This document shows positions 34,130 to 41,452 of a DNA stretch of 47,097 bases, one piece after another. The translations under genes were made by a program, and so were the position numbers. The notes beneath the pieces were generated by a model. It was given only the letters and a program-made list of their open reading frames with translations. It searched no databases and was not told where the DNA came from. This DNA is from an uncultured Clostridia bacterium. Its GTDB lineage: Bacteria > Bacillota > Clostridia > Christensenellales > UBA3700. Where the stretch lies: positions 1 to 47,097 of the forward strand of contig CAMFVQ010000052.1 in assembly GCA_945992255.1 (NCBI GenBank), read 5' to 3'. Positions within the stretch are counted from its first letter, which is position 1. Every line of letters begins with the position of its first letter.

Positions 34130-35168
34130 TTATACCTATGACCAAATAGTCGAGATTGTCCAATCTTTGGGCGAGCCAAAATTCCGTGCAAAACAGCTGT
34201 GGGATTGGCTTGTCAAGGGGTATGAATTGGATGAGATGTCCAATCTTCCCAAGACTTTTGTCCAAAAACTCCAAGATGAGGGCTACAAAGCTATGGGAGT
34301 GGAGATTGCTCAATGTTTGGTAAGCAAGCTAGACGGAACAAAAAAGTACATATTCCGCTTGTATGATGGCAATGTCATCGAGGGCGTGTTGATGAAGTAT
34401 AAGTACGGCAACACTATTTGCGTTTCGACACAAGTGGGCTGTCGTATGAATTGTGCTTTTTGTGCTTCCGGACTTGGCGGACTTGTCCGCAACTTGTCGG
34501 CAGGCGAGATTTTGGGACAAGTGATTGCTGTCAATCGTGACAATATGGACGGCAAGGATAGGGCAATCACCAACATTGTGTTGATGGGAAGTGGCGAACC
34601 TCTCGACAACTATGACAATGTGACTAGCTTTTTGCGACTGGTGTCGAGTGATGACGGCTTGAATATTTCTCGCCGCAACATATCACTTTCGACTTGTGGA
34701 CTGGTGGACAATATCAAAAGATTGGCGGATGAAAATCTTGGTGTGACAATGACTATATCGTTGCATGCTCCCAATGATGAACTCCGCAAAACTATTATGC
34801 CGATTGCCAAACGCTATTCTATCCAAGAGATTATGCAAGCGGTCAGATATTATTTCGACAAGACAGGCAGGCGTATAATATTCGAGTATTCGATGATTGA
34901 TGGCAAAAATGACAGCGTGCAATGTGCCGATGAGCTTGCAAAACTTGTCAAAGGACTTAGCTGTCATATCAATCTTATCAAGCTCAACTACGTCAAAGAA
35001 CGTGGACTTAGCGGAACGAAAATTGACAGAGTAAAAGCCTTCATAAAAAGGCTAGAAGAACACAATGTAAGCTGTTCGCTCCGCCGTACTATGGGCAGCG
35101 ATATAGACGGCGCTTGCGGTCAACTTAGAAGAAAATTTATTGCAGGAGAGGTGGGTTATCAAGACTAA
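34113..35168 (+). CDS. rlmN: 23S rRNA/tRNA adenine C2 methyltransferase RlmN
   Basis: GCRMNCAFCASGLGGLVRNLS, SLHAPNDELR, GACGQLRRKF. Confidence 0.96.
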   Translation: MKILLDYTYDQIVEIVQSLGEPKFRAKQLWDWLVKGYELDEMSNLPKTFVQKLQDEGYKAMGVEIAQCLVSKLDGTKKYIFRLYDGNVIEGVLMKYKYGNTICVSTQVGCRMNCAFCASGLGGLVRNLSAGEILGQVIAVNRDNMDGKDRAITNIVLMGSGEPLDNYDNVTSFLRLVSSDDGLNISRRNISLSTCGLVDNIKRLADENLGVTMTISLHAPNDELRKTIMPIAKRYSIQEIMQAVRYYFDKTGRRIIFEYSMIDGKNDSVQCADELAKLVKGLSCHINLIKLNYVKERGLSGTKIDRVKAFIKRLEEHNVSCSLRRTMGSDIDGACGQLRRKFIAGEVGYQD

Positions 35169-36039
35169 AAAGATAGGACAAGTCATCAAAGGAATGGGCG
35201 GAATTTATACCGTAAAGGCTGATAGTGGAGAGCTTATCAAGTGTTTTGCACGTGGCAAACTCAAACGACAAGGCGAGATTTTTATTGGTGATATGGTCGA
35301 AGTTTTGGTGGACAAAGAGGGTGTTATCGAGCAAGTTTTGCCTCGCAAAAGTATGCTTGTGCGACCTTATGTCAGCAATATAGAGAAGATTGTCATTGTC
35401 CTAGCGCCAATCCCTAAGCCTGATATGTTGCTCGTGGACAAGCTCATCATCGGTGCTATCGAGCAAGATGTCGAGCCTATTATCTGTGTCAACAAAGCCG
35501 ACCTCGAGGGCGTGGAAGATGTGGTAAAGAATGTCATCAATGATTATGAAGGAATGGCTACGATTTTGCCTATCAGCACTCAGACAGGACAGGGCATTGA
35601 CCAACTTATCGAGATGGTCAGGGGCAGTTATGTGTGTCTGGCAGGACAGTCCGCAGTGGGTAAGTCATCACTTATCAATTACATTTTTGGCGAGGACAAG
35701 ATGAAGGTTGGAGATTTGTCGCAAAAAGGCGACAGAGGCAAAAATACCACCAGACATATCGAGATTATGGAGCTTGAAGACGGTACAAAAATTGCTGATA
35801 CTTGCGGATTTAGTATGTTGGAAATGCCGCTAGTAGAGCCTAGCAAATTGGCGAGCTACTATACCGATTTTGATGAGTTCGTGGGTGGTTGCAAATTCCG
35901 CAGTTGTACTCACAGTGATGAAGAAGTTTGCGGAGTAAAACAAGCAGTATTGGATGGCAAATTGTCCAAGTCAAGATACGAAAGATATTTGACACTTTAT
36001 AAAGATACAAAAAAACGATGGGAGAGGAGATATGACTAA
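35140..36039 (+). CDS. rsgA: Ribosome small subunit GTPase RsgA; start codon uncertain
   Basis: CLAGQSAVGKSSLIN, GRGKNTTRHIE-like GDRGKNTTRHIE, DTCGFSMLEM; only standard start in range is TTG 35140. Confidence 0.92.
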   Translation: MQERWVIKTKKIGQVIKGMGGIYTVKADSGELIKCFARGKLKRQGEIFIGDMVEVLVDKEGVIEQVLPRKSMLVRPYVSNIEKIVIVLAPIPKPDMLLVDKLIIGAIEQDVEPIICVNKADLEGVEDVVKNVINDYEGMATILPISTQTGQGIDQLIEMVRGSYVCLAGQSAVGKSSLINYIFGEDKMKVGDLSQKGDRGKNTTRHIEIMELEDGTKIADTCGFSMLEMPLVEPSKLASYYTDFDEFVGGCKFRSCTHSDEEVCGVKQAVLDGKLSKSRYERYLTLYKDTKKRWERRYD

Positions 36040-36685
36040 AATTATGGTAGCGCCATCTATTTTGTCAGCAGATTTTGCTTACATGGGTGATGCGGTAAAA
36101 AACTTGAAAAAATGGAATGCAGACTGGGTACATTGTGACGTTATGGACGGCAAATTCGTGCCAAACTTGACTTTTGGTATGCCAATGGTCAAAGCTTTGC
36201 GTAAGTATACCGATATGGTACTTGATGTGCATTTGATGATTGACAGCCCCGAAACTTATATCGAAAGATTCATAGATGCCGGTGCTGATGTGGTGACTTT
36301 CCATGCCGAAACTTGTGCTTGCGTGGAAGAAATGCTTGACCTAATTCATGCCAAGGGCAAGAAGGGCGGACTCGTTCTCAACCCTGACAAAGAAGTAAAA
36401 GGGATAGCAAAATATTTGGACAAGGTAGATGTCGTGATGCTTATGGGTGTATTCCCGGGGTTTGGTGGTCAAAAATTTATCACCAGCGTGCTTGACAAAA
36501 TCAACGAGTTGAAAGAGTTGTCTCAGGGTAGATTTTTGATAGAGCTTGATGGCGGTGTGACAGTGGACAATGTGAGAGAAATGGCTGAGCGTGGCGTAGA
36601 TGTCGCAGTTGCAGGAAGTAGCGTTTTTGGAGCGGCAGACCCTGCTAAGGCGGTTGAGCTTATCCAAACTTGCTTAGAGAGATAA
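36032..36685 (+). CDS. rpe: Ribulose-phosphate 3-epimerase
   Basis: VAPSILSADFAYM, HCDVMDGKFVPNLTFG, GVFPGFGGQKF. Confidence 0.95.
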   Translation: MTKIMVAPSILSADFAYMGDAVKNLKKWNADWVHCDVMDGKFVPNLTFGMPMVKALRKYTDMVLDVHLMIDSPETYIERFIDAGADVVTFHAETCACVEEMLDLIHAKGKKGGLVLNPDKEVKGIAKYLDKVDVVMLMGVFPGFGGQKFITSVLDKINELKELSQGRFLIELDGGVTVDNVREMAERGVDVAVAGSSVFGAADPAKAVELIQTCLER

Positions 36686-36735
36686 CAAAGAGTCCGAGCA
36701 AATCAATACAAAGATTGACAAATAGTAGAATAGCA

Positions 36736-36767
36736 ATGAGTTCAGTGTTGTGCTGGGCTCATTTTTG
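36736..36767 (+). terminator. Rho-independent terminator after rpe
   Basis: ATGAGTTCAG-TGTTGTG-CTGGGCTCAT (10 bp with two G-U) + T5. Confidence 0.78.
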
Positions 36768-36803
36768 TTGGAAAGACTATGTAGTATGAGGGAAAATTTA
36801 CTC

Positions 36804-36831
36804 ACAACCAAAGCAAGCCTTGCATAATATA
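36804..36831 (+). promoter_or_regulatory. Mother-cell sigma (sigma-K/E)-like promoter upstream of putative spoVM
   Basis: AC-N17-CATAATATA, matching CATANNNTA. Confidence 0.35.
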
Positions 36832-36848
36832 AGGCAGTGGAGGTAGCT

Positions 36849-36929
36849 ATGAAAATATTTTGTATCAATCCGCCAAAGTTCATCAAAATGATACTTAGAC
36901 GAGTAGTTCCTAGTTATTGCAAAAGATAA
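36849..36929 (+). CDS. spoVM: Putative SpoVM, 26-aa amphipathic sporulation peptide (absent from ORF track)
   Basis: MKIFCINPPKFIKMILRRVVPSYCKR; SD GGAGGT 4 nt upstream; exact 26-aa length; syntenic with rsgA-rpe; followed by a terminator. Confidence 0.8.
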   Translation: MKIFCINPPKFIKMILRRVVPSYCKR

Positions 36930-36936
36930 TCACATT

Positions 36937-36961
36937 ATGCACCCTGTGGGGTGTATTTTTC
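36937..36961 (+). terminator. Rho-independent terminator of spoVM
   Basis: ATGCACCC-TGTG-GGGTGTAT + T5. Confidence 0.75.
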
Positions 36962-37080: not shown

Positions 37081-38049
37081 TTAGCATTTTACGATTGTTT
37101 TGAGATACATTGGTGATTGGGATAATGCTTCAAACACGCTAGGTACTTCGCTGATGTCCACAACTTTGTCAATCAAGCTGTCTACTTTGACAATCTCAGT
37201 AGCTAGCATATTGATAGCTGTTTCGATTTCGCCTTGACCATTGTTGAGTCCATAGATTGTCAAGTTGTGAGTGATGACTGGGCTTAGATCGCCTTGAAGT
37301 CCATTGAGGGTAGTAGCAAAACCATACATGCCGACACGGCCGTCCTTGCCAAGGTTGTAGAGTATATTGTCTACTTTGGTGGATATATCTGTGTCGAGAA
37401 TGAGATAATCTGCCATTGAGCCTGAAGTAATCTCTTTGAGTTTGGTGGTGATATCTTCTTCGTTGGTATCAATTTGGTAATATATGCCTAGCTCGCTGGC
37501 AAGTTCGAGTCTTGCAGGGTCGTTGTCTACCACGATAGGAATTGCTTGGTAATATATGCAAAGTTGGGCAAAAATCAAGTTCTTTACGCTGCAACCATTG
37601 ATAAGTACATATTGAGTTTTTTCAATGTTGAGCTTTTCGTGCATCTTGATAGTGAGTGCGATGTCATCAATAAATGTAATTGACTCATCAGATATACCAT
37701 CAGGCAGGGTGTAAATATCATTGAGATCGACATTGGCAAAGTCGCTTAGATAGCCGTCAAGCTCTACTCCGTGAGTTTTGAAAGATTCACTTGAAGTGCG
37801 AGCATAAGGCGAGAGCATAACTCTTTGACCTTTTTTGAGAGTAATATCCGAGCTTTCGCTGATAAGTCCAACAGCAATACGGCAAGGAGAGAGTGGATAA
37901 ATGCTTGTTTGTCCTAGATATGTTGCGATATCGCTAGCATCGATGCCAGCACGTGCAATTTTGACTTTTGCACATTCCTTAGGAACGGTAATATCATCAT
38001 TGACACATTCGCTCATACTTTGTTTAGAATTGATTTTCCACGATTTCAT
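37081..38049 (-). CDS. Diverged medium-chain dehydrogenase/reductase (alcohol dehydrogenase-like)
   Basis: MDR-like layout with RAGIDASDIATYLG and NDPARLELASELG, but lacking the usual GHE and GxGxxG; start placed at MKSWKI. Confidence 0.7.
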   Translation of the reverse strand: MKSWKINSKQSMSECVNDDITVPKECAKVKIARAGIDASDIATYLGQTSIYPLSPCRIAVGLISESSDITLKKGQRVMLSPYARTSSESFKTHGVELDGYLSDFANVDLNDIYTLPDGISDESITFIDDIALTIKMHEKLNIEKTQYVLINGCSVKNLIFAQLCIYYQAIPIVVDNDPARLELASELGIYYQIDTNEEDITTKLKEITSGSMADYLILDTDISTKVDNILYNLGKDGRVGMYGFATTLNGLQGDLSPVITHNLTIYGLNNGQGEIETAINMLATEIVKVDSLIDKVVDISEVPSVFEALSQSPMYLKTIVKC

Positions 38050-38159
38050 AATAGCTCCTATTGTAGACGAATTAAAGAAAGTATAGCATACAGCCAAAAA
38101 AAATGCAAACAAGCGAGTGGGGGTTTTGGCAGAAAAGACAAAATATTTTGGCAGATACG

Positions 38160-38580: not shown

Positions 38581-40371
38581 ATGAGCAGAAAAAAGAGTAC
38601 TTCAATAGGCGGACAAGCAGTCATCGAAGGTGTTATGATGCGTGGCGTACGCAGTATGGCAACGGCTGTTAGAGATGAAAAAGGTAATATTGTAGTAGAA
38701 AGTAAATATCTTAAACCTACCCAAGAAAAGAATTTTCTTTTCCGCACACCTTTTTTGCGTGGAATTTTCAATTTTGTTGGCACAATGGTGCAAGGTATGG
38801 GTACTTTGATGAGGTCGGGCGAAGTCTTTGAAGGCGAGGCAGAACCTGGCAAAATCGAAAAATGGTTTGCTTCTAAAAAAATCAATTTTTACAATATAGT
38901 TATGGCAATATCCGTGATTTTGGGTATTGCTTTGTCAATCGGGTTATTCTTCTTTTTGCCCCAATTTTTGACAAGTATTATTATCAAATATGGCAAAATT
39001 GATATGAGCAACGTTGGCACTCAGGTGGGAATGAACTTCCTTGAAGGAGTGTTGCGTATACTCATTTTTGTGGGATATATTTCGCTTACCACATTGATGA
39101 AAGATGTAAGGCGTACTTATATGTATCACGGTGCAGAGCATAAGACAATCAGCTGTTATGAAAATGACCTCGAGCTTACTGTCGAGAATGCTCGCAAAAT
39201 GACCACCGTGCATGACAGATGCGGTACAACATTTATGTTCATCGTAATGGTTGTGAGCGTGCTTGTATTTTCGCTTACTGGTTGGACAGGCAGCAATATG
39301 TGGGCAAGATTTGGTATCCGTTTGGCACTTCTTCCAGTGGTGGCAGGCGTGAGCTATGAGCTGTTGAAATTGTTTGCCAAATACGACAATTGGTTCGTAA
39401 AAATGTGCAAAGCTCCTGGTTTGTTGCTCCAAAAGCTTACTACCAAAGAGCCGACCGATGATATGCTTGAAGTGGCTATCGTGGCATTCAAGACAGTCCA
39501 AGCTATGGATGAAGACCCAACTATCCCAGTCCAAACTTTCGACACCAACAAGCCTTATCGAACATCAAGAGAAAAGATTGACAAGATTTTGGAAGCAATC
39601 AAAGCAGACGCATCCGATGGCGATTGGATTATGTGCGAAGCAATGGGCATAGGCAGGGAAGAGCTTGCCTCCAAGTCCCAAATCCGTTCTTCACAGCTTG
39701 ACAAAGCTATCGAATATGCGACCAAGAGAGCGACAGGTATGCCGCTATGGCAAGTTTTTGGCAAAGCAAACTTCTATGGCTATGACATAATCATCAACGA
39801 AAACGTGCTTTGTCCACGCCCAGAGACAGAATATCTTGCAGAACAAGTCATCAAAACTTGCAAAGAAGATAGCAGGGTACTTGATATGTGCTGTGGTAGT
39901 GGCTGTATATCAGTGGCTGTGGCACTCAATACCAATGCAAGCATTGTAGCAAGTGATATATCGGACAAGGCTTTGGATATTGCAAAACAAAACATTGAAA
40001 AGTACAATTTGCAGGAGAGAGTGGAACTTGTCCAAAGCGATTTTTGGCAAAATATCCAAGGTAAATTCGACATTGTGGTGTCCAATCCGCCTTATATCCC
40101 AACCAAAGATATAGATACACTTGACACGGAAGTCAAGGACCACGAGCCACACCTAGCTCTCGATGGTGGAGAAGATGGACTTGATGCTTATCGTACAATT
40201 TTGGCAGAGCTTGACAATCATATAGACAAAGACGGCTATATCATGTTCGAGGTAGGTATCGACCAAGCTCAGCTTGTCAAAGAAATGCTAGAAAATATGA
40301 ATTATAAATGTCGTATCGTGCAAGACCTTGAAGGTGTTGACCGCATAGTAATCGGAAAGAAAGGAAATTGA
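38581..40371 (+). CDS. prmC: DUF1385 membrane domain fused to release factor glutamine methyltransferase PrmC
   Basis: N-half [24 protein letters not shown] and [15 protein letters not shown]-half [16 protein letters not shown] and VSNPPYIP; no internal stop. Confidence 0.9.
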
Positions 40372-40372
40372 T

Positions 40373-41452
40373 ATGTTTGAAAGACTAAAAAAGATGTTGG
40401 AGAGATTTGAAGAGCTTACCAACCTAATATCCGACCCAGCAGTCATTGCTGATCAAGCAAGATGGCAAAAGCTTTGTAAGGAACATTCGGACCTAGAGCG
40501 ACCAATCGAGCTATATAAACAATATCTTGCAATCGAAGAAGCAATCAACGAATGTAAAGAAATCATTGAAGATGGCTCAGATAAAGAAATGGTTATGCTT
40601 GCTAAGGAAGAGTTGTCATCTTCCAACAAACAACTCGAAGAATTGGTCGGCGAGCTAAAAATTGCATTGCTACCAGTTGACCCTAACGATGACAAAAACG
40701 TTATTGTAGAAATCAGAGCGGGTGCAGGTGGCGAAGAAGCTGGACTTTTCGGCGCCCAACTTGTGCGTATGTATATGCGTTATGCTGAGCGTATGCGTTG
40801 GAAAATCCAAGAAATTGATATGAACTATACCGAGCTTGGTGGCGCTAAGGAAGTTACTTTTATGATAAGTGGCAATGGCGCATTCAGCAAGTTGAAATTC
40901 GAGAGTGGTGTACACAGAGTGCAAAGAGTGCCAGAGACAGAGTCCCAAGGCAGAGTACACACTTCTACCGTAACAGTTGCGGTACTTCCAGAAGTGGAGA
41001 ATATCGACATCGAGATTTTGGATAAGGACTTGAAGATAGACACATACCGCAGTGGTGGCGCAGGCGGACAGCACGTCAACAAAACAGACAGTGCAGTGCG
41101 TATGACACACTTGCCAACAGGCATTGTGGTAACTAGCCAAGACGAGCGAAGCCAAATCAAGAATAGAGAGCGTGCTATGAGCGTACTCAAATCAAGATTG
41201 TACGACTATTATCAAAGCAAAGCCGACAGCGAATATGCTGCCAACAGAAAATCGCAAATTGGTACTGGCGACCGCTCGGAGAAAATCCGTACCTACAACT
41301 TCCCACAAAATCGTGTGACTGATCACCGCATAGGCTTTACTATGTACAACTTGCTCGACTTTATGGACGGTGACTTGTTCGAGATGATAGAGGCACTCCA
41401 AATTGCCAACCAAACAAAACTTCTATCCCAAGTAGAAGGTGAAAATAATTGA
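40373..41452 (+). CDS. prfA: Peptide chain release factor 1
   Basis: [41 protein letters not shown]. Confidence 0.96.

Follow-up and report, generated by a model that had tools for sequence, protein, structure and literature searches.

The window, a stretch of 47,097 nucleotides, is contig 52 in the genome of an uncultured Christensenellales bacterium (G000; 1.48 Mb, 98% complete). A small open reading frame downstream of rpe encodes a SpoVM-like peptide of 26 amino acids, and the features of the locus are as follows:

35140 to 36039, + strand: rsgA, ribosome GTPase, a syntenic anchor (PF03193, 142.9 bits)
36032 to 36685, + strand: rpe, ribulose-phosphate 3-epimerase, a syntenic anchor (PF00834, 237.7 bits)
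36735 to 36763, + strand: intrinsic-terminator-like hairpin after rpe, between rpe and the spoVM-like gene
36802 to 36830, + strand: putative mother-cell-type promoter, TCACAAC-N-CATAATAT, recognized as a shared upstream element
36839 to 36844, + strand: Shine-Dalgarno sequence GGAGGT, 4 nt upstream of the ATG
36849 to 36929, + strand: spoVM-like gene, 26 amino acids, MKIFCINPPKFIKMILRRVVPSYCKR, identified by its reading frame and Shine-Dalgarno sequence, its conservation in the family and order, and its top match to an out-group SpoVM HMM
36937 to 36956, + strand: intrinsic-terminator-like hairpin at the 3' end of the spoVM-like unit, starting 7 nt past the stop codon

A preliminary description of this DNA had proposed a 26-codon gene at 36849-36929, a GGAGGT Shine-Dalgarno sequence 4 nt upstream of it and a transcription unit bounded by terminators. 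The ATG, the stop codon and the length were confirmed in the sequence, the Shine-Dalgarno sequence was present, and terminator-like hairpins were found on both sides of the gene, such stems occurring at 3 sites in the 1.2 kb region vs. 0.8 expected. An equivalent Shine-Dalgarno sequence was seen in nearly all relatives. An in-frame GTG at 36837, 12 nt upstream of the ATG, would yield a peptide of 30 amino acids; the 26-residue form is preferred because an ATG start was found at the equivalent position in 30 of 30 members of the window's family. A tRNA scan of the window gave no match.

The position just downstream of rsgA-rpe, which had been likened to the B. subtilis order rsgA-rpe-thiN-spoVM, was also confirmed, both genes being directly upstream; neither thiN nor rpmB adjoins the spoVM-like gene in this window. 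In many relatives, rpmB lies on the - strand 0.3-0.75 kb downstream of the peptide gene and is followed by yloU. An alcohol-dehydrogenase-like gene occupies the place of rpmB in the window, and rpmB is still downstream in the genus-mate G001. The locus is recognizable by rsgA-rpe here and by rpmB and/or yloU in many relatives. A conserved closeness of spoVM and rpmB is reported for the carriers of SpoVM (PMC5607322), and the neighborhood rsgA-rpe-(gene)-rpmB-yloU, with its downstream part taken from the relatives, matches the known, ancestral location of spoVM.

Farther along the window, a 596-amino-acid open reading frame on the + strand (38581-40371) fuses DUF1385 (PF07136) to a PrmC-like methyltransferase (PF05175 region), and an open reading frame that reads as release factor 1 follows directly, at 40373. 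The homolog has a different setting in ultra-small (0.8-0.9 Mb) Christensenellales genomes of another family, where it lies 3' of spoIVA on the same contig, at a distance of about 0.1 kb in G102 (MKKDEEKQFKIICIKAPKWMRPLLKPFVKKELEK) and 0.85 kb in G158 and G229. The SpoVM-like peptides of these three genomes (loci L268-L270) are extended at the N-terminus (MKKDEEKQFKIICIKAPKW...). In family f42 (locus L273, genome G210), the SpoVM-like gene is divergent to spoIVA and about 0.4 kb from it.

A short reading frame that is followed so closely by a hairpin, and whose product contains a Pro-Pro pair, could be read as a regulatory leader peptide, with the terminator serving as an attenuator. However, there is no directly downstream gene to attenuate, because the next gene (37081-38112) is encoded on the - strand in the window, and the downstream gene is also on the opposite strand in most of the relatives checked (rpmB, - strand). 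An Rfam scan of the window was without a match, and the peptide is homologous to SpoVM, as detailed below. An attenuator is hardly credible on this evidence, and that reading was rejected.

Conservation and relationship to SpoVM

Most of the relatives that form spores encode, downstream of rpe, a peptide of 22-34 amino acids with the same pattern. This was M[KR]I-x-C-I-x-x-P in most members of the order and CINPP..IK..LR in the window's family, and small reading frames at this place in relatives matched M[KR]I-x-CI[ND]PP-x-x-IK-x-x-LR; MKIICINPPKFIKAILRVFAKSRH is one close relative of the window peptide. A profile of 21 family peptides had this reading frame as its sole match in G000 (8.4e-12) and found matches beside rpe across the order. 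Met1, Cys5, Pro9 and Leu16 were invariant in 30 of 30 family members. Synonymous codons varied at invariant sites (four codons for Pro9 and six for Leu16), and the start codon was constant. The median dN/dS was 0.18 over the first 17 codons of 138 usable pairs, most other pairs being saturated at synonymous sites; the C-terminal third varied between genus-mates. The preliminary description had held that a lack of synonymous-biased change in sister genomes would count against the gene, and had pointed to the region downstream of rpe in relatives as a place to look for it. Both the synonymous-biased conservation and a conserved small open reading frame with a strong Shine-Dalgarno sequence were found there. 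The spoVM-like reading frame is a conserved protein-coding gene under purifying selection.

The window peptide did not match the Pfam SpoV or NCBIfam SpoVM models, even at E <= 10; the cut-off of a curated model is a detection threshold and not a biological definition. The relative G044, with a peptide at the same locus (MRFYCIKLPRFVGAVIRFVLGK...), scored 33.7 bits with Pfam SpoV (cut-off 20.6) and 31.0 bits with NCBIfam SpoVM_broad (cut-off 31), and SpoVM_broad was the only or best family for seven other same-locus relatives tested (E 4.9e-6 to 0.036). Applied to whole genomes, the NCBIfam model pointed to rpe-linked spots in G044, G052, G058, G045, G041, G035, and G051, and none of the 59 genomes of the order set exceeded the NCBIfam SpoVM cut-off in this genome search. 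A gradual series of sequences leads from B. subtilis SpoVM (MKFYTIKLPKFLGGIVR) through G044 (MRFYCIKLPRFVGAVIR), G058 (MKIYCFKAPRFIKAILR) and G051 (MKIICIKPPKIIRGILR) to the window peptide (MKIFCINPPKFIKMILR).

An HMM constructed from 28 SpoVMs from outside the order (the out-group) ranked the window reading frame first of 2261 stop-to-stop segments of the window, at 8.7 bits (9.6 bits for the peptide alone), and gave up to 32 bits in order members. The SpoVM profile search suggested at the outset was positive with the out-group HMM, but not with the curated Pfam and NCBIfam models. Comparison of the family with out-group SpoVM by hhalign gave a probability of 96 and a score of 33.7 in an alignment that was gapless over 24 columns; the best of 200 column shuffles used as a control scored 22.4. 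The combined alignment has 48 rows, and Pro9 is present in each of them. The bridging relatives, the profile-profile comparison and synteny show that the reading frame is homologous to SpoVM by common descent, and they uphold the initial identification of a divergent SpoVM.

The peptide is small, cationic and amphipathic, and its likeness to SpoVM as a single sequence is weak, properties that an unrelated, lineage-specific, membrane-active microprotein (e.g., a type I toxin) could acquire by convergence. Such an origin is at odds with the graded intermediates at the same locus, which extend up to peptides that pass the SpoV cut-off, and with the rpmB-yloU synteny, the single copy in G000 and the co-occurrence with sporulation genes; convergence is very improbable and was rejected. 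We place the probability that the reading frame is this bacterium's divergent ortholog of spoVM at about 0.93.

Residues shared with known SpoVMs and lineage-specific changes

The window peptide was aligned without gaps to B. subtilis SpoVM, in a sequence that matches NCBIfam SpoVM at 7e-22. A hand count gave 10 identities in 26 positions (M1, K2, I6, P9, K10, F11, I15, R17, S22, and K25), in line with the roughly 10 of 26 claimed earlier, K2, P9, K10, F11 and R17 among them. The likeness exceeds chance: when the peptide was shuffled 20000 times, 26 of the shuffled versions scored as well against a SpoVM profile. Four residues are needed in B. subtilis SpoVM, namely K2, I6, P9 and I15 (PMC5607322), and all four are identical in the window peptide. 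Pro9 is the sole fully conserved residue of SpoVM (PMC5607322) and is required for curvature recognition; the I6A substitution abolishes SpoIVA binding, and the K2A and I15A substitutions block cortex formation (SpoVM literature; PMC5607322). In relatives, K2 is often Arg and sometimes Val, I6 is Ile, Val or Phe, and I15 is Ile, Val, Leu or Phe.

Like B. subtilis SpoVM (PF08183; NF011327/NF033436), the window peptide has 26 amino acids, aligns without gaps and keeps Pro9, Ile6, Lys2, Ile15 and Arg17, and its gene lies downstream of rsgA-rpe in its own transcription unit in a genome with SpoIVA and sigma-E. Unlike B. subtilis SpoVM, it has Cys5 for Thr5, Asn7-Pro8 for Lys7-Leu8, Lys13-Met14 for Gly13-Gly14 and a different C-terminal third; thiN does not intervene, and no curated model scores the peptide above its threshold. 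It shares with other Clostridia SpoVMs (MKIYVIKPPKFLSSIIKKLFRFKQE and MKIVVVKMPKFFGNILKKVFKIG; loci L156 and L167) the start M-[KR]-I-x-x-[IV]-x-x-P-[KR]-[FL] and an alternation of hydrophobic and basic residues past Pro9, and the Pro-Pro pair at positions 8-9 occurs there too. Those SpoVMs differ in having Val or Ala rather than Cys at position 5, Lys rather than Asn at position 7 and mostly Gly or Ser rather than Lys at position 13.

Both cysteines of the peptide had been noted before. Cys5 is near-invariant in the order and does not occur in the out-group SpoVMs, whereas Cys24 is shared with the genus-mate only. The change of Gly13-Gly14 to Lys-Met is also present as described, but it is not peculiar to this peptide: clostridial SpoVMs vary at these positions, and the change is a family trait, since Lys13 occurs in 29 of 30 family members, Gly or Ser being usual elsewhere. 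Lys7, which is near-invariant in other SpoVMs, is Asn in the window peptide and Asn or Asp in most of the family. The basic residue at position 13 probably arose first, because the intermediates G051, G041 and G058 carry it together with Lys7. Cys5, the loss of Lys7 and the gain of Lys13 are lineage-specific features.

Occurrence with sporulation genes

The absence of sporulation genes such as spoIVA and sigE from the genome had been named beforehand as evidence against a SpoVM. G000 contains spoIVA (625 bits; cut-off 460), a sigE match of 347.6 bits, 1 bit below the cut-off, and a sigK-like gene. In the order set, spoIVA was detected in 49 of 59 genomes and sigE-type matches in 49 of 59, G000 being among both. 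The peptide was detected in 48 of 51 genomes bearing sporulation genes vs. none of the 8 asporogenous genomes, which are those with neither spoIVA nor sigE (Fisher p 7e-8, a value that ignores shared ancestry); among the 48 positives, a few weak cases were assigned by eye and the copy of G028 is truncated at the end of its contig. The three order genomes with sporulation genes and no detectable copy were G039 (51% complete), G048, and G056. Every genome of the order set that retains the gene also has sporulation genes.

Losses are spread over genus g6 and four separate families. Genus g6, a genus of the window's family, includes a genome with sporulation genes (G006) and four without spoIVA, sigE and SpoVM (G011, G016, G020, and G023), and sporulation was probably lost recently in this genus.

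Across 246 Clostridia genomes, a combined profile detected the gene in 97 of 175 genomes with spoIVA vs. 7 of 71 without it, leaving 78 of the 175 spoIVA-bearing Clostridia genomes with no copy detectable by this profile. NCBIfam SpoVM_broad was above its cut-off in 6 of the 246 genomes, whereas the combined profile found 104. The gene is overlooked by annotation models; the gap is order-wide and largely class-wide, and annotation of SpoVM in the class is badly incomplete.

Predicted function, regulation and significance

In Bacillus, SpoVM is a tiny peptide of the membrane to which the spore coat owes its anchorage. The mother cell would produce the spoVM-like peptide from a promoter of the sigma-E/sigma-K type. 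Past Pro9, the chain would fold into a short, cationic, amphipathic helix positioned in the outer membrane of the forespore, the Pro8-Pro9 pair would hold the N-terminus out of this helix, and the N-terminal part with Ile6 would dock the C-terminus of SpoIVA. With SpoIVA docked in this way, it would polymerize on the forespore, and the coat would be anchored there. The hydrophobic moment of residues 10-20 was high (0.78) in the window peptide but exceeded shuffles of the same residues only marginally (p 0.067), whereas it did so clearly in the four order relatives tested (p values of 0.013 or lower), and the C-terminus of the G000 SpoIVA is intact (VNDGKGGVVCILL). A mother-cell tether that holds SpoIVA at the forespore membrane is the best reading because of the four key residues, the moment of residues 10-20 and the intact SpoIVA C-terminus, and from these features we infer that the window peptide binds the forespore membrane and recruits SpoIVA.

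The putative promoter contains an element, [GT][TC]A?AC-N13-19-CATA...T, that was present in 25 of 46 homologous upstream regions vs. 1.4% of random 110-nt stretches, the pattern having been defined after viewing the data. Its CATA part lies about 20-36 nt upstream of the ATG, and a CATA-type -10 resembles the consensus of sigma-E and sigma-K sites. The -35 part (GTAAC/TCAC) is not the usual sigma-E -35, and a scan for canonical sigma-E promoters upstream of the homologs was not significant (mean z 0.69). The putative promoter is probably under mother-cell control. The SpoVM upstream element was found in 0 of 20 spoIVA upstream regions. Upstream of spoIVA at loci L192, L193 and L187 (genomes G009, G004, and G014), we observed GTAATAT-N-CATATATTTTA, which is near the SpoVM element but different.

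Like C. difficile SpoVM, with which it was compared by published description, the window gene has the key residues, a location near rpmB in its relatives and a SpoIVA partner (PMC5607322). The C. difficile protein is largely dispensable (PMC5607322), which calls for caution against assuming an essential role here; even a genuine ortholog may be of little importance. Instead of serving as the main SpoIVA anchor, the ortholog may have come to play a lesser or altered part, such as fine-tuning coat attachment or acting with a different partner. C. difficile SpoVM binds SpoIVA and its loss costs about 3-fold in resistant spores (PMC5607322), and the window's family has lost Lys7, gained Lys13 and varies in the C-terminal third between genus-mates, all of which would fit such a role. 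Against it, the first 17 residues are under strong purifying selection, K2, I6, P9 and I15 are retained, the SpoIVA C-terminus is conserved, and gene loss in the order set coincides with loss of the other sporulation genes. We consider a reduced or shifted role possible but unlikely; it is a sub-case of the ortholog reading, with which its probability overlaps.

In SpoIVA, a Cys lies four residues from the C-terminal end in all 23 out-group sequences and in all but one of the aligned Christensenellales sequences. In the peptide, the near-invariant Cys5 immediately precedes Ile6, the SpoIVA-docking residue. A more specific proposal is that Christensenellales SpoVM is chemically distinct, with Cys5 and the C-terminal Cys of SpoIVA forming a covalent anchor and the shift of the basic residue from position 7 to position 13 changing its membrane depth or curvature preference; we regard this proposal as improbable. 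Covariation between Cys5 and a SpoIVA Cys was considered and rejected: no order-specific SpoIVA Cys tracks Cys5, and the C-terminal Cys is class-wide.

The spoVM ortholog described here adds a new and highly divergent member to the known SpoVM family. SpoVM and SpoIVA are the sole coat-morphogenetic proteins of B. subtilis with homologs in Clostridia (PMC5607322), and Galperin et al. (2012) did not decide whether clostridia that are negative in standard searches might have distant forms of SpoVM (PMC3533761). The occurrence of a divergent SpoVM throughout an order, together with sequences that bridge the gap, bears on that question (PMC3533761) and provides a profile for re-annotation of SpoVM. 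The natural variants Cys5, Asn7 and Lys13 provide material for studying how a peptide of 26 residues reads membrane curvature. In one data set with 19 Christensenellales MAGs, a predictor based on gene content classified 18 as non-sporulating (PMC12536801). The present results are evidence that a coat-building program has been retained in many small-genome, uncultured members of the Christensenellales, a gut lineage.
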